Below are positions 1 through 8,903 of a stretch of 10,109 nucleotides of DNA, one piece after another. This stretch comes from Aquimarina sp. GTDB lineage: Bacteria > Bacteroidota > Bacteroidia > Flavobacteriales > Flavobacteriaceae. The stretch is taken from NCBI GenBank assembly GCA_011524575.1, contig WTKB01000062.1:1-10109 (forward strand), given 5' to 3'. Position numbers and translations under genes: made by a program. The notes beneath the pieces were generated by a model. That model was not told where the DNA came from. It made no database searches and worked only from the letters and a program-made list of their open reading frames with translations. Each line of letters opens with the position of its first letter. Position 1 is the first letter of the stretch.

Positions 1-270
1 ATAGAAAAAGACTTCGGAAATATAACCCAGGTCGCCTATGAATGTGGATTTAATCCGTTTGAAGATGCAAGGGCAACCTTTGATATTCGTTTTTATCTGG
101 TAGCAATTTTATTTCTTGTTTTTGATTTAGAAATTAGTTTTTTATTTCCGTGAGCATTAATTATTAGTAACTTGAATTTATTTCAATTTTGAATTATGAT
201 TATTTTTTTAATTATTTTGACAGTTGGATTCATTTACGAGTGGTACAAAGGCGCGTTAGAATGAGAATAA
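1..270 (+). CDS. nad3: NADH dehydrogenase subunit 3, 5'-truncated by the window
   Basis: Membrane subunit of respiratory complex I (NADH:ubiquinone oxidoreductase) in the inner mitochondrial membrane. The window opens inside the gene: 89 codons remain before TAA at 268-270, so about 30 N-terminal residues are missing compared with a usual length near 120. The family signature is clear: [12 protein letters not shown], the conserved quinone-site loop with its reactive Cys, is followed by [18 protein letters not shown] and a second membrane segment. UGA must be read as Trp three times (in FPW, QFW and near the end in LEW), which fixes the genetic code. It heads the plus-strand block in this window and is followed by a non-coding island before rps11. 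Identification is firm. Confidence 0.97.
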
Positions 271-429
271 ATTAAACGTAAATTATTTAATTTTTTGCTA
301 GTAAGCTAACTTAAAAGAGTAAAATATTCTGCCTGATCTTTGTTGTTTCACCTGCAGTTTACTTCTTATTTAAACTACTTTAGTATGGAATTTCAAATAT
401 GTTAGCTACCAAATTACAAAAGAACAATA
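271..429 (+). other. non-coding island between nad3 and rps11, possible structured RNA
   Basis: This is the longest gene-free stretch in a genome that otherwise leaves 0-40 bases between genes. No ORF of note is present: an ATG at 399 opens only 12 codons, and one at 384 hits TAG after six. No cloverleaf tRNA could be folded. Bases 301-310 (gtaagctaac) can pair with 401-409 (gttagctac) with one bulged A, closing a domain of about 109 bases. Inside it agttta and taaact (about 354-378) form a 6-bp hairpin. The size and closing helix recall a small structured RNA, but no diagnostic motif is visible. It may instead hold a promoter or processing site. Confidence 0.35.
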
Positions 430-780
430 ATGTTTAAGCAAAATTCTGCTATTCTTTTAGTTAATTTAACCCGCTCTAATGTTTTCTTTACACTCACTTC
501 TTTAGATGGGCAAATTTTAGGATCGGTGTCAGCTGGCCAATTTAAAACAAAAGGTGCAAAAAAAGTTACGGTGACAACTATTAAAGCGTGCCTTTTAAAA
601 TTAAATCAAAGTATAACTCAAAACTTACTATTTCATGTAAAGTTTAAAGGATTATCTAAACACAAACGCTTAATACTAAAATTACTTACAAAAAATTTAA
701 ATTATGCTGTTTTAAGTTTTGCTGATATTACGACTTTACCACATAATGGGACCAAACCTACAAAAATCCGACGTATATAG
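430..780 (+). CDS. rps11: ribosomal protein S11
   Basis: Small-subunit mitochondrial ribosomal protein (uS11), which binds rRNA on the platform near the E site. 116 residues, slightly shorter than the bacterial protein (about 130), mainly through a short N terminus. The C terminus is diagnostic: TTLPHNGTKPTKIRRI matches the bacterial S11 ending (PHNGCRPPKKRRV type). The central SAGQFKTKGAKK and the AxxL region also fit. An in-frame TAG at 403-405 lies upstream with no other ATG between, so the start at 430 is well supported. There is no Trp codon. The TAG stop (778-780) overlaps the first two bases of the following trnM. Confidence 0.95.
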   Translation: MFKQNSAILLVNLTRSNVFFTLTSLDGQILGSVSAGQFKTKGAKKVTVTTIKACLLKLNQSITQNLLFHVKFKGLSKHKRLILKLLTKNLNYAVLSFADITTLPHNGTKPTKIRRI

Positions 781-853
781 CGAGGTAGTTCAAGTTGGTT
801 AGAACAATAGAATCATAATCTATAAGTTGTAGGTTCAAGTCCTATTCTCGCTA
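779..853 (+). tRNA. trnM: tRNA-Met (CAU), elongator type
   Basis: The cloverleaf folds fully: acceptor AGCGAGG/TCTCGCT (one G-U), D stem GTTC/GAAC, anticodon stem ATAGA/TCTAT around loop ATCATAA with anticodon CAU, T arm GTAGG-TTCAAGT-CCTAT, discriminator A853. The A1-U72 pair and AU-rich anticodon stem lack the three G-C pairs of initiators, so this is probably the elongator. A lysidine-modified Ile tRNA cannot be excluded from sequence. It begins inside the rps11 stop codon. Confidence 0.9.
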
Positions 854-866
854 TCTTTCGTATTAA

Positions 867-937
867 GGCTAGGTCGCAAAGTGGTTTTGCAAAAAATTGC
901 AAATTTTTTTACATTGGTTCGAATCCAATCCTAGCTT
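867..937 (+). tRNA. trnC: tRNA-Cys (GCA)
   Basis: Acceptor GGCTAGG/CCTAGCT (first pair G-U), D stem GCAA/TTGC, anticodon stem AAAAA/TTTTT around TTGCAAA with anticodon GCA, T arm ATTGG-TTCGAAT-CCAAT. Discriminator U (937) is the expected identity element for Cys. The anticodon stem consists only of A-U pairs, which is unusually weak. Confidence 0.9.
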
Positions 938-965
938 TATTCGAGAGGCTGAAAAGAAAAAATAA

Positions 966-1205
<240 letters not shown>

Positions 1206-1218
1206 AAAATATAAATTA

Positions 1219-1291
1219 TAGGGTATAACGTAATTGGTAACGTGTTTGCTTTGGGTGCAAAAAACTATAGGTTCGAATCCTATTACCCTAA
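1219..1291 (+). tRNA. trnP: tRNA-Pro (UGG)
   Basis: Acceptor TAGGGTA/TACCCTA perfect, D stem ACGT/ACGT, anticodon stem TTTGC/GCAAA around TTTGGGT (anticodon UGG followed by G37, as usual for Pro), T arm ATAGG-TTCGAAT-CCTAT, discriminator A. First of a tight trnP-trnS-trnF cluster with 2-3 base gaps. Confidence 0.95.
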
Positions 1292-1293
1292 AC

Positions 1294-1376
1294 GGATAAA
1301 TGGCTGAGTGGTTTAAAGCATCAATTTTGAAAATTGACATAAAATTTTATCGGAGGTTCGAATCCTTCTTTATCCA
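1294..1376 (+). tRNA. trnS: tRNA-Ser (UGA)
   Basis: Acceptor GGATAAA/TTTATCC perfect, D region TGGCTGAGTGG typical of class II tRNAs, anticodon stem TCAAT/ATTGA around TTTGAAA with anticodon UGA (reads UCN), extended variable arm, T stem closing with CCTTC. Discriminator A rather than G is slightly unusual for Ser. Confidence 0.93.
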
Positions 1377-1379
1377 TTA

Positions 1380-1452
1380 GTTTAGATAGCTCAATTGGTA
1401 GAGCAAAAGATTGAAGCTCTTTGTGCTATTGGTTCAAGTCCAATTCTAAACA
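1380..1452 (+). tRNA. trnF: tRNA-Phe (GAA)
   Basis: Acceptor GTTTAGA/TCTAAAC perfect, D stem GCTC/GAGC, anticodon stem AAAGA/TCTTT around TTGAAGC (anticodon GAA), T arm ATTGG-TTCAAGT-CCAAT, discriminator A1452. It lies 15 bases before sdh3. Confidence 0.95.
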
Positions 1453-1467
1453 ACATTACTTTAACGT

Positions 1468-1752
1468 ATGCTAAAACGCAATCGCCCAATTTCACCGCAT
1501 CTATTAATTTACAAAGCTACTTTAAATTTACAACGATCAATTTTCCATCGTTTTTCTGGCATTACTCTTGTTATCAGTTTACTTTTATCAGTTTACTTTT
1601 ATCAGTTTACTTTACAAAGTTCCTTATTTAACGTTACTCAGACTATTTTAGTTACGCATTTTTTTCTTTTTTTCTTTTGAAAAAATTTAACTTATTTTAT
1701 TTTTGGGTTTCATATTTTTAGTGGAATCCAATATTTAATTAATAAATTTTAA
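1468..1752 (+). CDS. sdh3: succinate dehydrogenase membrane anchor subunit 3, short form
   Basis: Membrane anchor (SdhC family) of complex II, which helps hold heme b and the ubiquinone site. 94 residues, reading UGA at 1678-1680 as Trp. The N terminus RPISPHLLIYK and the SIFHRFSG motif are classic: S24 and R28 have the spacing of the quinone-binding Ser and Arg. H82 in FGFHIFSG corresponds to the heme axial His. Two membrane helices are visible (about 31-48 and 73-91). Homologues usually run near 125 residues with a third helix, but here a TAA falls at once after IQYLINKF and sdh2 starts 1 base later. The usual GxRHL motif reads GIQYL. An exact 14-base triple repeat lies in helix 1. The gene is real, but possibly reduced. 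Confidence 0.88.
1572..1613 (+). repeat. 3 x 14-bp perfect tandem repeat inside sdh3
   Basis: Three exact consecutive copies of TATCAGTTTACTTT, followed by a non-repeat boundary. The unit is not a multiple of three, so each copy is translated in a different frame, and together they encode part of the first membrane helix. One or two copies would shift the rest of sdh3 out of frame. Confidence 0.98.
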
Positions 1753-1753
1753 C

Positions 1754-2512
1754 ATGTTTTTACGCCCAATAACTCTAAAATTAACAAAATCTGAAACAAA
1801 GTTATTACACAATAACACACTACGTTATTTTCGTATTTATCGTTGAAATCCATATTTACAAATAAAACCACATTTTAGCATCTATCCTATTAATACTTCA
1901 CAATGTGGATCTATGATTCTAGATGTATTAATTTATATTAAAAATTATCATGATGCTTCACTCACATTTCGTCGTTCTTGCAGAGAAGGTATTTGTGGTA
2001 GTTGCTCAATGAACATTGAAGGAGTAAATGGTTTAGCTTGTTTAAAAAATGTTCCCAAATCCGAAAACTCCCAACTTTTTTTGACAATTTATCCACTACC
2101 TCATTTACAAATTATTAAAGATTTAGTTCCTGATTTAACTAACTTTTATCGTCAGTATAGCTTAATCAAACCTTGATTAATTGCACCGACAAATGTTGAG
2201 AAGGAACATTTACAGTCAACAACGGATCGGGCGCAGCTTGATGGGCTATACGAATGTATCTTGTGTGCATGCTGCTCCGCAAGTTGTCCTAGTTATTGAT
2301 GGAATTCGGATAAGTATTTTGGTCCTTCGATCTTACTTCAAGCTTATCGTTGAGTTTCTGATTCACGTGATACTGCTCAACGTCCTCGTCTTAATTATCT
2401 TAATCAAAAAATGCGTTTGTTTTCATGCCATAGTATTTTAAACTGCACGAGTGTTTGTCCTAAAGCGTTAAATCCAGCGCGAGCCATTCAAAAATTAAAA
2501 TCAGAAATTTAA
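1754..2512 (+). CDS. sdh2: succinate dehydrogenase iron-sulfur subunit
   Basis: Electron-transfer subunit of complex II, carrying electrons from the flavoprotein to ubiquinone on the matrix side of the inner membrane. 252 residues, full length, with UGA as Trp four times (one in YWW next to a UGG). All cluster ligands are present. The [2Fe-2S] cluster has C76, C81, C84 and C96 ([10 protein letters not shown]...LAC). The [4Fe-4S] cluster has C168, C171, C174 and C235. The [3Fe-4S] cluster has C178, C225 and C231 ([28 protein letters not shown]). Spacing matches bacterial SdhB. The N-terminal RYFRIYRWNP is the usual ferredoxin-fold start, and ATG 1754 is the only start giving it. It follows sdh3 with a 1-base gap, suggesting cotranscription. 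Mitochondrially encoded sdh2 is restricted to a few lineages, including red algae and jakobids. Confidence 0.97.
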
Positions 2513-2519
2513 CGTTGTC

Positions 2520-2592
2520 GGCGAAAAGAACTAGGTGGTTTAGTGTTAGATTGTGATTCTAAAAATCGTGGGTTCGAATCCCATTTTTCGCC
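2520..2592 (+). tRNA. trnH: tRNA-His (GUG)
   Basis: Acceptor GCGAAAA/TTTTCGC with an encoded G(-1) at 2520 opposite C73, the His identity pair. D stem ACTA/TAGT, anticodon stem TTAGA/TCTAA around TTGTGAT (anticodon GUG), T arm GTGGG-TTCGAAT-CCCAT. Confidence 0.95.
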
Positions 2593-2611
2593 CACAATGT
2601 TAGTTGATATT

Positions 2612-2682
2612 GCGAAAATAACTTAATGGTAGAGTGTAATCTTGCCAAGATTAGTGTAAGGGTTCGAATCCCTTTTTTCGCT
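2612..2682 (+). tRNA. trnG: tRNA-Gly (GCC)
   Basis: Acceptor GCGAAAA/TTTTCGC perfect, D stem ACTT/GAGT, anticodon stem TAATC/GATTA around TTGCCAA (anticodon GCC), T arm AAGGG-TTCGAAT-CCCTT. The acceptor stem is identical to that of the neighbouring trnH. A second Gly tRNA (UCC) lies on the other strand at 4924-4998. Confidence 0.95.
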
Positions 2683-2698
2683 AATATAAGTTTAAGTT

Positions 2699-3319
2699 AT
2701 GACATTTACAGTAGAAATATTTTTATTTAGTTTATTTAGTTTATTTAGTTTATTATCTGCGACTTTAGTTGTTTTACTCAACAATGCTGTGCAATCAGTA
2801 TTGTTTTTGGTACTAACTTTTTTTAATGTCGCATGTCTGTTATTACTACTAGGGGCTGAATTTTTTGCTTTTTTACTGATTATTGTTTATGTAGGAGCAA
2901 TTGCGGTGTTATTCCTCTTTGTCATTATGATGTTAAATCTAAAGTTAGTACCAAAAACAAGCCATTTTGGTATTACAATACCTATTGTAGGTTTAGTTAT
3001 TGGGTTACTAAGTTTAAATTTTAATTCTTTTTTAGATCACACAGATTTGCTAAGGTTGTGTACTTTAAATTCAGAAGGACTTTTAAATTCGTGATTACAG
3101 GAACGAGAAATTCGTGAAAATATAGTTGTTGTCGGAAATGTTCTTTACTCAACTTATGGTTTACTTTTTTTACTTGCAAGTTTAATTTTGTTGGTAGCAA
3201 TGATTGGTGCAATTGTCTTAACAATGCACTACAAATTAAGCTCTAGAGCACAAAGTATTAATTTACAATTAATACGAAACCACAAGGATTCGGTCAAGTT
3301 TATTACTATACGGAAATAA
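2699..3319 (+). CDS. nad6: NADH dehydrogenase subunit 6
   Basis: Membrane subunit of complex I in the proton-pumping arm. 206 residues, typical length. An internal UGA at 3092-3094 is Trp, and reading stops at TAA 3317-3319. Hydrophobic helices fill residues about 5-110. The conserved stretch ADFFAFLLIIVYVGAIAVLFLFVIMML-like (around residues 55-80, with VYVGAIAVLFLF) is the ND6 signature containing the pi-bulge Tyr-Val-Gly. A late helix is followed by MIGAIVLTM, also typical. The N-terminal helix contains an FSLFSLFSLL repeat from a 9-bp tandem duplication. It lies between trnG and trnL(UAG), the last plus-strand genes before the hairpin. Confidence 0.96.
2722..2752 (+). repeat. 9-bp tandem repeat (about 3.4 copies) in nad6
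   Basis: TTTATTTAG occurs three times in succession with a partial fourth copy. The unit is three codons, so copy number changes only the length of the first Nad6 helix (repeated LFS). Confidence 0.93.
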
Positions 3320-3340
3320 AAAAGTATTAATTTACTCCCT

Positions 3341-3425
3341 ACGGATATGATGAAAATGGTAAACATATTAGATTTAGGATCTAATGAGTGTCTAGCTCTT
3401 GAGGGTTCGAGTCTCTCTATCCGTA
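3341..3425 (+). tRNA. trnL: tRNA-Leu (UAG)
   Basis: Acceptor ACGGATA/TATCCGT perfect, class II long variable arm, anticodon stem TTAGA/TCTAA around TTTAGGA (anticodon UAG), T arm GAGGG-TTCGAGT-CTCTC, discriminator A. Its 3' 33 bases (3393-3425) are inside the left arm of the 81-bp inverted repeat. The 3' half of this tRNA could therefore pair with the right arm instead of folding normally unless cleaved early. Confidence 0.95.
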
Positions 3426-3557
3426 GTAAAAGTTGGAGTAGTTATTTGAAAAGTTAAACAAAAGGGAGGTAACTTAGTTACCTCCCTTTTGTTTAACTTT
3501 TCAAATAACTACTCCAACTTTTACTACGGATAGAGAGACTCGAACCCTCAAGAGCTA
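3393..3557. repeat. perfect 81-bp inverted repeat, 3-base loop
   Basis: Arms 3393-3473 and 3477-3557 are exact reverse complements around the loop TTA (3474-3476). The GC-rich core GGGAGGTAAC/GTTACCTCCC sits at the tip. The left arm contains the last 33 bases of trnL(UAG) plus 48 bases of spacer. The right arm ends exactly at the cob stop codon (3555-3557 on the minus strand). Complementarity stops sharply at both outer edges. Large stem-loops at transcription-unit junctions are known from red algal mtDNA (Chondrus crispus); I infer the same role here. Confidence 0.97.
3426..3524. terminator. probable bidirectional terminator or 3'-processing hairpin
   Basis: This is the tRNA-free part of the inverted repeat: 48-bp arms of spacer sequence plus the loop. 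It separates the plus-strand unit ending in trnL(UAG) from the minus-strand unit ending in cob, so both RNA polymerases run into it. Either transcript would carry an extremely stable hairpin. The termination role is inferred from position and structure, and mRNA 3'-end protection or a replication function are alternatives. Confidence 0.55.
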
Positions 3558-4703
3558 TTTAGTCCTAAACTCTAATAAAAAGTGCTCTACCTGACCTAAT
3601 AACGGGATGAATATCAGAAAATATAAGAAATAAATTAAACTTAAACTTTGCCCAATAATAATATAAGGATCTTCCACCGGCATCCCACCAATTCAGCCCA
3701 GTAAAAAACAGCAACTTAAAAGAAGACCGTAAAACAACTTGTAAATCGGACGGAACCTTGAACTACGGACCTCCGTACTATGAATTCAAGGAAGTGCTGC
3801 TAAAATTAAAATCGATGCTAACATAGCGATAACCCCGCCTAATTTATGAGGGATACTTCGTAAAATTGCGTAAAACGGTAAGAAATATCATTCAGGCACA
3901 ATATGTGCAGGAGTAACCATTGGGTTTGCTTCAATATAATTATCTGAATGTCCTAAAACATTTGGGAAAAAATACAGAAAAATACAGAAAAATAAAAAAA
4001 ATAAACTTAAACCAAAAAAGTCTTTAATTATAAAGTACGGAAACATATTAATTTTATCGACTTTTGACTCAATACCTAATGGATTACCAGATCCATCTTG
4101 ATGTAATAAAGTAATATGAAGTAACGAAACAGCTGCAATGACAAACGGAAGGAGATAATGTAAACTAAAAAAACGATTAAGAGTTGCATTGTCAACACTA
4201 AACCCACCTCATAACCAAGTTACAATAGAGTCACCAATAAAAGGAACTGCTGAAACTAAGTTTGTAATGACTGTAGCGCCTCATAAACTCATTTGACCTC
4301 AAGGTAATACGTAACCAATAAATGCAGTAATAATCATTAAAAGTAAAATTAAAACTCCAATTACTCAAACTCATTGTTTTGGCTTAACATATGAGCCAAA
4401 ATATAAACCTCGAAATACATGAATATAAACAATAATGAAAAACATAGAAGCACCATTAGCATGACCGTAGCGTAAAAGTCAACCAAAATTCACATCACGC
4501 ATAATGTGTTCTACACTTGCAAAAGCTAAGTCGACATGGGGTGTATAATGCATTGCTAAAAAAATTCCCGTAAGAATTTGTATTATTAAACATATAGAAG
4601 CTAAAAAACCAAAGTTTCATGCATAATGAATGTTTATCGGAGTTGGGTAACTGATTAAATGATCGTTAACAATGGAAATAACAGGAAGTTTAACTGTACG
4701 CAT
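3555..4703 (-). CDS. cob: apocytochrome b
   Basis: Central subunit of complex III (cytochrome bc1), binding hemes bL and bH and the two quinone sites. 382 residues, standard length. Heme ligands H81/H95 and H182/H196 have the invariant 14-residue spacing. The Qo-site motif PEWYF is present in [20 protein letters not shown], and [14 protein letters not shown] is conserved. UGA is read as Trp many times. The C terminus ILIPLLG-like ([16 protein letters not shown]) continues to RTK and stops at TAG (3557-3555), which is the outer end of the inverted repeat. It is the last gene of the minus-strand unit. A 10-bp tandem repeat sits in one helix. The start at 4703 gives the usual N terminus with [15 protein letters not shown]. 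Confidence 0.98.
3971..3994 (-). repeat. 10-bp tandem repeat (2.4 copies) in cob
   Basis: AATACAGAAA occurs twice followed by AATA. On the coding strand it encodes the CIFLYFF part of a membrane helix just before PNVLGH. The unit is not a multiple of three, so the copies are read in different frames. Confidence 0.9.
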
Positions 4704-4729
4704 TTTATATAAATTTCGTTAGTTTTTGA

Positions 4730-4814
4730 TTACTCACTATTGGACTTGAACCAATAACTTAATCTAAAGAATGGATTTTAAATCCATCGTGTTTACCATT
4801 TCACCAAGTGAGTA
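4730..4814 (-). tRNA. trnL: tRNA-Leu (UAA)
   Basis: Acceptor TACTCAC/GTGAGTA perfect, anticodon stem ATGGA/TCCAT around TTTAAAA (anticodon UAA), class II variable arm, T arm ATTGG-TTCAAGT-CCAAT, discriminator A. It reads UUR, complementing trnL(UAG). Confidence 0.95.
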
Positions 4815-4832
4815 AAATAAAAAATAAAGGTT

Positions 4833-4904
4833 TTGGTGTAACAGGATTCGAACCTATACATGCTAGCATCAAAAGCTAATGCCTTCCCATTTGGCTATAC
4901 ACCA
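4833..4904 (-). tRNA. trnQ: tRNA-Gln (UUG)
   Basis: Acceptor TGGTGTA/TACACCA perfect, anticodon stem TTAGC/GCTAG (one U-G) around TTTTGAT (anticodon UUG), T arm ATAGG-TTCGAAT-CCTGT, discriminator A. Confidence 0.94.
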
Positions 4905-4923
4905 AAAAATAAATAGGTCTTTT

Positions 4924-4998
4924 AAGCGGGTAAAGGGATTCGAACCCTTACACTTTAGTTTGGAAAACTAACGATATACCAATTTACCTACACCCGCT
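4924..4998 (-). tRNA. trnG: tRNA-Gly (UCC)
   Basis: Acceptor AGCGGGT/ACCCGCT perfect, anticodon stem TTAGT/ACTAA around TTTCCAA (anticodon UCC), T arm AAGGG-TTCGAAT-CCCTT. It lies 16 bases downstream of ymf39. Confidence 0.95.
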
Positions 4999-5014
4999 AA
5001 TTTTGTTTATTTAA

Positions 5015-5569
5015 TTATTTAATTAATTTTTGCAAATGCTCGCGAAAATAGATGGTTTTAATTGTTTTAAAAGCTGGAACTTTTAAAGTCCCTTCAAAAA
5101 AATTCTGTACTGCAACAAACTTTTGAAGTTTTTCTGCAATTATTAAAGTAAGGACTTTAGTTAATTGGACTTCTAACCGAGCTGAAAACTCTAGTTTTTT
5201 TTTTAATTTATTTTTAAGCTCAAAGTGATAAAAAGACGAAAATTGAGCTAAAATATAAAAATTGAAGCCTTTAAAATCAGCCTTTAAGTTACTAAAAATG
5301 TGAGGTCAAATTACTTTAGTTTGAAGTTTGTTTTGCTTGTTTTGAGTGATTGTAATTAGCTTAGATGTTGAAGCAACTAATTCTGATTTTATAGCGGTAG
5401 TTTGAGAGTTAAAAAAATCCTCCACACTAGAAGAAAGCCGAGATGACGCAAGAAAACAGAAAACAGAAAAGCAAATTAAAATTAAAGTTTCTTCGTTAAT
5501 TAAAATAATTTTTAAGTTAATTAAAATTAAACCAATTAAAATTAAACTAAAATTTACACGATTAGTCAT
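5015..5569 (-). CDS. atp4: ATP synthase F0 subunit b (Ymf39)
   Basis: Peripheral-stalk subunit b of ATP synthase, historically ymf39 in red algal and protist mtDNA. 184 residues, usual length, with one UGA Trp at 5308-5306. It is identified mainly by position (after cox3, before the tRNAs and cob, as in red algae), length and architecture. There is a hydrophobic N terminus (residues about 7-45, possibly two close membrane segments), then VEDFFNSQTTAIKSEL, then a long Lys/Glu-rich helical region with coiled-coil character. The protein evolves fast and has few invariant residues, so the family call is less certain than for the cox genes. A 7-bp tandem repeat lies in the hydrophobic part. The next gene upstream, cox3, ends 18 bases before the start. 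Confidence 0.85.
5451..5471 (-). repeat. 7-bp tandem repeat (3 copies) in ymf39
   Basis: AGAAAAC-AGAAAAC-AGAAAAG, the third copy differing in its last base. It encodes CFSVFCF in the hydrophobic N-terminal part. The unit is not a multiple of three. Confidence 0.85.
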
Positions 5570-5587
5570 AGTTAATATTTTATTTAA

Positions 5588-6406
5588 TTAGTTACCCCCT
5601 CATCAGTAAATTGAGACAAATAAAAATAATCACACAACATCTACAAAATGTCAGTATCAGGCAGCAGATTCAAATCCAAAATGATGTTGTTGAGTAAGTT
5701 GAAAATTTTGAAGCCTAAAAAAACAGCTAGCTAAAGCGATTGTTCCAATGAACACATGAAAACCATGAAAACCTGTTGCTAAATAAAAAGTTGATCCATA
5801 AATACCATCTGATAATCTAAAATCAGCAACATTGTACTCGTATGCTTGAAATCCAGTAAAAATCGATGCTAATAGTATAGTTAAAAGTAAACTTAGTAAC
5901 GCTTGGGAGCGTTGATTTGCAACAATTGCATGATGTGATCAAGTAACGGTACAACCTGAAAGTAGCAGAATTAACGTGTTTAGCAGCGGAATGTCTCATG
6001 GACTTAATGTAATGATTCCTTTTGGTGGTCACGTAGCACCAATATCAATTGAAGGTGTTAAGCTACTATGAAAAAAAGCTCAGAAAAAAGCAAAAAAAAA
6101 TAAAACTTCTGAGACAATAAAAAGTAAAACGCCATACCGTAAACCTTGTTGGACGATACCTGAATGATGGCCTTCAAAAGTAGCTTCTCGAGATACATCA
6201 CGTCATCAAGTAAACATTATTACTAAAAGAAGTATAAAACTAGTACTTAAAATAAACGCTCCTAAAGCAAAAGCATGTAAGTATAATACTCCTCCAATCG
6301 CACAAAAAAACGCAGCAATTGAAGCAAAAAAAGGTCATGGGCTCGGATCAACAAGATGGAAGGGGTGACGTTGAAATGTTTTGAAATGTTTTGAAACAGT
6401 AAACAT
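5588..6406 (-). CDS. cox3: cytochrome c oxidase subunit 3
   Basis: Seven-helix core subunit of complex IV that stabilises Cox1 and its proton uptake. 272 residues, standard length. Conserved blocks are [14 protein letters not shown] at the N terminus, [46 protein letters not shown] and the ending [21 protein letters not shown]. Many UGA Trp codons, including a UGA-UGA pair near the end. The ATG at 6406 directly follows the stop of the 39-codon ORF. The leader before RHPFHLV is extended by a 10-bp tandem repeat (SKHFKTFQ). Confidence 0.98.
6371..6396 (-). repeat. 10-bp tandem repeat (2.6 copies) in the cox3 5' end
   Basis: TTGAAATGTT twice followed by TTGAAA. It encodes the KHFKTFQ part of the Cox3 leader, and the copies are read in different frames. 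Confidence 0.92.
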
Positions 6407-6526
6407 TTACTTATTTTTTTTAAAATACCTTAAAAATCTACGAATGAAATTTTGCAGGACTTTTGGATAAAAAAGAAAAACAAAAAAAATGAAAAGTAGG
6501 GTAAGTTGAAAAAGCGAAATTCGCAT
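6407..6526 (-). CDS. 39-residue TatA-like membrane protein in the cox2-cox3 spacer
   Basis: Short ORF that starts 11 bases after the cox2 stop and ends with TAA immediately before the cox3 ATG, so it fills the spacer. The start at 6526 is the only in-frame ATG, and an in-frame TAA lies upstream. The protein begins MRISLFQL, has one hydrophobic segment (residues about 5-20), a short YPK hinge, then a basic amphipathic stretch RRFLRYFKKNK. This order (short N-terminal helix with Gln near residue 7, hinge, basic amphipathic helix) is that of TatA/TatB, and MxISLxQL resembles TatA N termini. The usual FG hinge is FY here. Red algal mtDNAs encode the partner TatC (ymf16), which is not in this window. 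No Trp. The function is inferred; a chance ORF is possible but is made less likely by the tight fit. Confidence 0.6.
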   Translation of the reverse strand: MRISLFQLTLLFIFFVFLFYPKVLQNFIRRFLRYFKKNK

Positions 6527-6537
6527 CGCAGTTGTAT

Positions 6538-7314
6538 TTACTCACTTAGTTTATTACAAATTCAAGACACGTAATTTTGTAAATTAACAGCTTCAATCAC
6601 AATAGGCATAAAGCCATGGTTAATTCCACAAATTTCGCTACATTGTCCATAATAAATTCCTTCACGCTTTACGAAAAGAGAGGTTTGATTTAAACGCCCA
6701 GGAACCGCATCACATTTCACGCCTAATGAGGGAACCGCTCAACTGTGTAGAACATCAGCAGCAGATACAATAATACGTACATGTGTGTTTGTTGGAATAA
6801 CTACGTTATTATCAACTTCAAGTAAACGAAATTGGCCAATGTTTAAATCATCTTCTGGAATCATGTAACTTTCAAATTCAATTGACTCACCACTTTCATT
6901 CTGGTAGTCAGAGTACTCGTAACTTCAGTATCATTGATGGCCAATTGTTTTTATAGTTAAAGTTGGTGAAATTATTTCATCCATGGCGTAAAGGAGAGAA
7001 AACGAAGGAATTGCGATAATTAGTAAAATTAAAGCTGGTGTTAATGTCCAAATAATTTCAATTACTGTACCATGAACTAAGGTTGACGAAACGGGATTTT
7101 GGTTTTCTTCAAAATGCCATAAAGTTTTCGCAAGCATTCAGGAAACAAAAATTGCAATAACACAAACAAAAAACATTAAATCATGATGAAGGTTAATAAT
7201 CCCTTCCATGATTGGTGTCGCAGGATCTTGAAAGCCAAGCTGTCATGGTTCTGCGACATCACAAAAAGTTAGTAGCGGGTTCGCTGACAAAATAAAGGTT
7301 AAAATAAATTTCAT
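6538..7314 (-). CDS. cox2: cytochrome c oxidase subunit 2
   Basis: Carries the CuA centre that takes electrons from cytochrome c. 258 residues, standard. An N-terminal hydrophobic leader (about 1-18) resembles those cleaved in other algae and fungi. Two membrane helices follow (about 42-62 and 84-108), then the conserved GHQWYWSYEY aromatic region (125-134). All CuA ligands are present: H190, C225, E227, C229, H233 and M236 (in [13 protein letters not shown]). UGA and UGG are both used for Trp. It starts 5 bases after cox1 ends, so the two are certainly on one transcript. Confidence 0.98.
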
Positions 7315-7319
7315 AGAAG

Positions 7320-8903
<1,584 letters not shown>

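Follow-up and report, generated by a model that had tools for sequence, protein, structure and literature searches.

TatA and TatC make up a two-component translocase, TatAC, encoded in the mitochondrial genome of the jakobid Andalucia godoyi, and together the two proteins, assayed by AmiA export, partly complement E. coli lacking TatABC (PMC6251230). The taxa for which that study lists a mitochondrial TatA are jakobids, cryptists, ochrophytes and Ancoracysta only. Many mitochondrial genomes retain TatC without a visible partner, no eukaryotic substrate is known, both TatC-only proteins tried failed in E. coli, and single components from Reclinomonas could not stand in for their E. coli counterparts (PMC6251230). 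In cryptophyte mitochondrial DNA, tatA lies within a syntenic block, block E, ordered cox2-tatA-cox3-rpl12-rpl7-rps19, which is broken in some cryptophytes, cox2 being gone from it in one of two blue/green species (PMC5910586). The same study presents a 16-protein mitochondrial tree that joins cryptophytes with red algae, a grouping its authors call unexpected (PMC5910586). Published florideophyte mitochondrial gene tables include tatC (PMC11050817, PMC12189398, PMC10455443), and under the name secY it has the highest Ka/Ks among 23 mitochondrial genes of Gelidiales (PMC5064358). Among bacterial members, E. coli TatA has a transmembrane helix at residues 6–20, a hinge F20-G21-T22-K23 and an amphipathic helix at residues 24–43 (PMC4121141); the polar side chain at residue 8 matters in transport, and the hinge glycine is conserved (PMC5201420).

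The window analysed here is a whole contig of 10,109 nt (C130) from a prokaryote bin (G000). It is mitochondrial, with UGA read as Trp, and carries nad3, rps11, atp9, sdhC, sdhB and nad6 on the plus strand and cob, atp4, cox3, cox2, cox1, rpl16 and rps3 on the minus strand, the rps11 and rps3 calls scoring under their Pfam cut-offs. This is the florideophyte gene order, as given in rows of Table 1 of PMC12189398. A second contig of the bin (C270, positions 1–7330) contains atp6, atp8 and three proton-pumping nad-type genes. The closest database proteins are 92–95% identical for cox2 and 90% for cox3; four database cox2 proteins (P0002–P0005) span 88–95%. At 6739–6741 a TGA codon gives HSWAVPS in the cox2 of the window, where the closest database cox2 reads HSSAVPS, a difference that reflects either sequence variation or a mistake in one of the records. 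Among named entries, the nearest for both cox2 and cox3, at 80–85% identity, belong to Pseudoceramium, Ceramothamnion, Centroceras and Campylaephora; Ceramothamnion and Pseudoceramium are confirmed as Ceramiales, and the source is therefore taken to be a ceramialean red alga or close kin. The presence of red-algal mitochondrial contigs in a prokaryote species bin is eukaryotic contamination.

A spacer of 131 nt, made up of 11 nt, 39 codons and a TAA, separates the cox2 stop (6538) from the cox3 ATG (6406). The enclosed reading frame, here called ORF39, starts with ATG, is read in code 4 on the minus strand from 6526 to 6407 and translates as MRISLFQLTLLFIFFVFLFYPKVLQNFIRRFLRYFKKNK*. The preliminary description of this spacer, a 39-codon ORF beginning 11 bases past the cox2 stop with its TAA touching the cox3 ATG, is exact on the minus strand; read on the plus strand, 6407–6526 contains stops. 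Since the TAA abuts the cox3 ATG, ORF39 shares the cox3 frame. The features of the locus are as follows.

6407–6526, minus strand: ORF39, candidate mitochondrial TatA, 39 codons plus TAA
6470–6514, minus strand: predicted transmembrane helix, codons for residues 5–19 with polar Gln7, from the AlphaFold helix and hydropathy
6461–6472, minus strand: putative hinge Phe19-Tyr20-Pro21-Lys22, in place of the TatA hinge Phe-Gly-Thr-Lys, with a predicted helix break at residue 20
6413–6466, minus strand: codons of the predicted basic amphipathic helix, residues 21–38, from the hydrophobic moment on three scales and the AlphaFold model
6527–6537, minus strand: 11-nt leader from the cox2 stop to the ORF39 ATG, from the sequence
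6538–7314, minus strand: cox2 (258 aa), upstream of ORF39, Pfam COX2 at 1.1e-63
5588–6406, minus strand: cox3 (272 aa), downstream, its ATG abutting the ORF39 stop, Pfam COX3 at 5.7e-111

The contig is compact, with gaps from −3 nt upward, and only three of the 24 junctions listed in the window exceed 36 nt: nad3-rps11 (159 nt), trnL-cob (128 nt) and cox2-cox3. Judged by length, similar cox2-cox3 gaps occur in Fushitsunagia catenata (131 nt; PMC11050817), Grateloupia turuturu (144 nt; PMC10455443) and Ahnfeltiopsis flabelliformis (170 nt, with cox2 annotated shorter; PMC12189398). Cox2-3 spacers have been sequenced as markers in many species (e.g. PMC3527623, PMC12724006).

The predicted layout of ORF39 resembles that of bacterial TatA and TatB (PF02416; E. 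coli TatA, PDB 2mn7). AlphaFold2 run without an alignment places helices at residues 5–19 and 21–38 with a break at Tyr20 (mean pLDDT 90.5, pTM 0.44), a model that counts for little in a lone 39-residue peptide, and the best 15-residue hydropathy window is residues 5–19 (mean 2.69). In an ungapped register, Gln7 falls on Gln8 of E. coli TatA and Phe19 on Phe20. Traits of the TatA/B/E family that ORF39 displays are a single short N-terminal transmembrane helix (predicted, 15 residues), a polar residue in that helix at the equivalent of position 8 (Gln7) and a predicted amphipathic helix past the hinge; a Phe ahead of the hinge and a Lys behind it are shared as well. The amphipathic character of the tail is pronounced: within residues 21–39 the best 15-residue hydrophobic moment is 0.93, a value reached by 0.06% of 100,000 residue shuffles (P 0.0006), and P stays at or below 0.0103 in all nine combinations of three hydrophobicity scales with three window lengths. 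When the 38 ATG ORFs of 30–70 aa on both strands of the two mitochondrial contigs are ranked by this moment, ORF39 comes first, the next value being 0.71, and it alone combines a transmembrane stretch of at least 1.9 with a downstream moment of at least 0.6. ORF39 differs from bacterial TatA and TatB in being just 39 residues long, in having Tyr20 where the conserved Gly21 stands, in lacking Gly in its amphipathic helix and in containing no Asp or Glu among its 39 residues, a criterion of our own drawn from 34 TatA/B sequences.

Searches with family models return no TatA. ORF39 has no PF02416 match at E values up to 10, where HMMER filters drop most matches above ~0.1, and does not reach the gathering score of 21 bits; NCBIfam gives no TatA match, and the single weak Pfam match, MotB_plug (E 0.076), lies under its cut-off. 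On a home-made profile of 34 non-redundant TatA/B sequences, ORF39 scores 2.4 bits (P 0.004; P 0.017 with the hydrophobic pattern fixed), and held-out 39-residue TatA/B sequences each score at least 39.1 bits. This balanced profile was built from E. coli TatA and the 85 of 90 loci that passed filters on length and letters; removal of sequences at 65% identity or more left 34, and it mixes TatB with TatA. The mean score of ORF39 over the 34 sequences has P 0.02 (P 0.095 with the hydrophobic/polar pattern fixed) and the maximum P 0.005 with that pattern fixed; taken singly, nine of the 34 comparisons give P <0.05 and 25 give P ≥0.05. The resemblance is colinear over residues 3–30, and shuffling the transmembrane part alone yields P 0.08–0.41, so that this segment contributes little to the score. 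Set against 12 39-mers with a transmembrane stretch and a basic tail, taken from all frames of both contigs, ORF39 has the best score, 2.4; its own sequence in a shifted window scores 2.2, and the rest of those listed −1.2 or less. Ungapped comparison with E. coli TatA gives a score of 40 against a segment-shuffle mean of 19.4 (P 0.0001); over six TatA sequences the maximum has P 0.00095, with three of the six single comparisons at P 0.34–0.57. A first TatA profile, heavy in Flavobacteriales (45 sequences, 48/63 loci), gave P 0.12–0.25.

We read this similarity as a faint colinear resemblance, not membership. ORF39 is not assigned to the TatA/B/E family: three features were tested and each spoke against it, namely the family score, the hinge glycine and the acidic residues. 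The yardsticks are all bacterial sequences; mitochondrial TatAs are described as greatly divergent and scattered in clustering (PMC6251230), and thus a faint profile score does not exclude one. The TatA architecture claimed in the preliminary description, with a short membrane helix, a hinge and a basic amphipathic helix, is supported by the predicted helices and the amphipathic tail; the hinge glycine is replaced by Tyr, and acidic residues are lacking. The TatA identity it had proposed agrees with architecture and gene position, whereas PF02416 and NCBIfam do not recognise the peptide and the profile score is weak.

The location of ORF39 matches the cryptophyte tatA slot, cox2-tatA-cox3, a match noticed after the architecture. 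In our judgement, nothing speaks more strongly for a TatA than a TatA-shaped ORF exactly at this slot in a lineage with a retained tatC. Cryptophyte mitochondrial TatA is likened to ORF39 by gene position, by tatC in the same type of genome and by the tree that groups the two lineages, not by sequence, and the cryptophyte block is itself broken in some species. No tatC of this alga was found on the two mitochondrial contigs, and the sole TatC match in the bin adjoins ORFs read as bacterial. On balance, ORF39 is probably a real gene. The best single explanation, ahead of the three rivals considered below, is that it is an unannotated mitochondrial gene for a minimal, divergent TatA-type protein in an ancestral cox2-tatA-cox3 block, a reading to which we give a little under an even chance.

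Part of the evidence would fit a non-coding spacer, in which T-rich and then A-rich DNA happens to read as hydrophobic and then basic, the length reflects RNA processing or drift and the ORF is meaningless. An open frame is by itself unremarkable in a T-rich spacer, since 44% of 20,000 dinucleotide shuffles contain one of at least 39 codons; the placement of the ATG is remarkable, as only 0.165% of the shuffles (632 of 307,376 in a larger set) contain an ATG ORF of that length. A transmembrane stretch followed by an amphipathic basic tail, under limits looser than the observed ORF39 values, occurs in three of 307,376 shuffled spacers as an ATG ORF of at least 39 codons and in nine as an ORF of at least 30, but those limits were fixed after ORF39 had been seen, the spacer was chosen for its striking look and the P values are uncorrected genome-wide, so that the true significance is below the quoted figures. 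When the T-rich and A-rich halves are shuffled apart, none of 5,000 open frames reaches the ORF39 moment. The RNA fold of the spacer is insignificant (z −1.27; 26 of 200 shuffles fold equally well), no Rfam family matches it at E up to 0.5, and it is the only gap above 36 nt in the contig that lacks even a tentative explanation other than ORF39. Codon usage gives no support to ORF39 as a gene and argues the other way. Per codon, its log-odds come to −0.158; 39-codon gene windows average 0.145, with a 5th percentile of −0.099, and a score at least as high is reached by 82% of shuffles. In synonymous codon choice it ranks among the lowest 4.3% of 469 gene windows, a level as low being found in 2.2% of simulated genes for the same peptide; and six of its seven Leu codons are CTN, where the genome prefers TTA. 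Also counted against ORF39 is that it is known from one metagenomic contig with homopolymer runs. A non-coding reading would accord with the use of the spacer as a non-coding marker (PMC3527623) and with a protein search, of low sensitivity, that found no homologue; weighing these points, we consider it somewhat unlikely.

A real gene at this position could also encode a small membrane protein other than TatA, such as a lineage-specific cytochrome oxidase or ATP synthase subunit, or an assembly factor beside cox3. One transmembrane helix with a basic amphipathic tail is a generic architecture, the conserved TatA glycine and a Pfam match are missing, and ORF39 bears some resemblance to the start of the atp8 protein of this alga, at its N-terminal end (ungapped score 48 against a null of 35.6, P 0.035). 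However, atp8 is already present on the second contig (Pfam YMF19, 4.2e-12), some TatA comparisons give a lower P than atp8, the likeness to TatA/B runs colinearly over the stretch given above, and the corresponding cryptophyte slot is occupied by tatA (PMC5910586), which together make a protein of another kind unlikely. Far less probable is a leader (upstream) ORF whose TAA-ATG end couples cox2 and cox3 translation and whose peptide is unimportant. The stop abutting the cox3 ATG in the same frame is what such an element would look like, but it leaves the amphipathic peptide unexplained, and the same-strand gaps sdhC-sdhB, atp4-cox3, cox2-cox1 and rpl16-rps3, of 1–18 nt, have no room for one. 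Further candidates were rejected: a structured RNA in the spacer, on the fold z score (−1.27) and the blank Rfam result, and a copy of another mitochondrial gene, the matches being just of the shared-composition kind.

On paper, ORF39 could act in the manner of a TatA. The sequence predicts a 15-residue transmembrane helix that carries one polar residue close to the N-terminus, then a break, then a basic helix of strong amphipathicity. After insertion, the N-terminus would face the intermembrane space, the basic helix would rest against the inner membrane on its matrix side, and Gln7 may touch the polar site in TatC. Together with a TatC that is also mitochondrially encoded, ORF39 would then form a two-component TatAC translocase that carries a folded protein out of the matrix. 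It would share this mitochondrially encoded set-up with Andalucia, whose TatA and TatC are annotated genes of tested function (PMC6251230), whereas ORF39 is a candidate that family models do not recognise. A wider proposal, to which we hold tentatively and which falls somewhat short of an even chance, is that red-algal mitochondria are not TatC-only but encode a 39-residue, glycine-less TatA in a marker spacer, that cox2-tatA-cox3 is ancestral and shared with cryptophytes, and that other TatC-only mitochondria may hide an equally short TatA. If true, a large group without known TatA would become TatAC, and the hunt for a substrate would gain a complete machine. It would also support a mitochondrial gene order common to red algae and cryptophytes, and would warn that a marker treated as non-coding may be under selection.

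Other red-algal mitochondria were sought by DNA searches of 395 genomes of the order, 66 of the genus, 395 of the phylum, 398 of the phylum of G464 and 397 of the family; besides the source bin, none gave a match of at least 300 nt above 71% identity. Scans of viral contigs found no relative with cox3 and five with cox1, at 49–57% identity. The cox3 scan of genome contigs returned at least 80 loci, all listed ones titled as bacteria, and four of the six patterns hold Trp, often as TGA in code 4. No fusion of ORF39 to cox3 was present among the best 120 of 1,770 matches, the longest being 292 aa against a query of 312, and ORFs of 25–150 aa in 198 loci gave nothing convincing against ORF39 (best E 0.079). 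Two contigs in prokaryote bins of the same order, G141:C5 and G100:C2, look mitochondrial from their dense tRNA genes; their cox2 and cox3 matches lie apart, and neither has a TatC or TatA match. A protein database search, of low sensitivity with a 40-residue query, found no ORF39 homologue and not even the ORF of the window itself; database gene callers seem to skip it, and hence the absence of protein homologues means little. In a literature search with subscription papers mostly outside its reach, no TatA or named ORF was found in a red-algal cox2-cox3 spacer.

Each of the other two long gaps of the window has an explanation of its own, a tentative one in the case of nad3-rps11. In that gap (271–429) Rfam matches nothing at E values of 0.5 or less, 5S RNA included; it may hold a divergent 5S rRNA (rrn5), given that in Grateloupia turuturu rrn5 adjoins rps11 on the flank opposite atp9 (PMC10455443 Table 2). 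The trnL-cob gap is filled by a perfect inverted repeat at 3393–3557, with two 82-nt arms separated by 1 nt, which also takes in the cob stop codon and the 3' part of trnL(UAG). Shorter stem-loops of 51–63 nt are reported at transcription unit borders in florideophyte mitochondrial DNA (PMC3386957), and the last stretch of the second arm of the repeat in the window copies the tRNA end in antisense.
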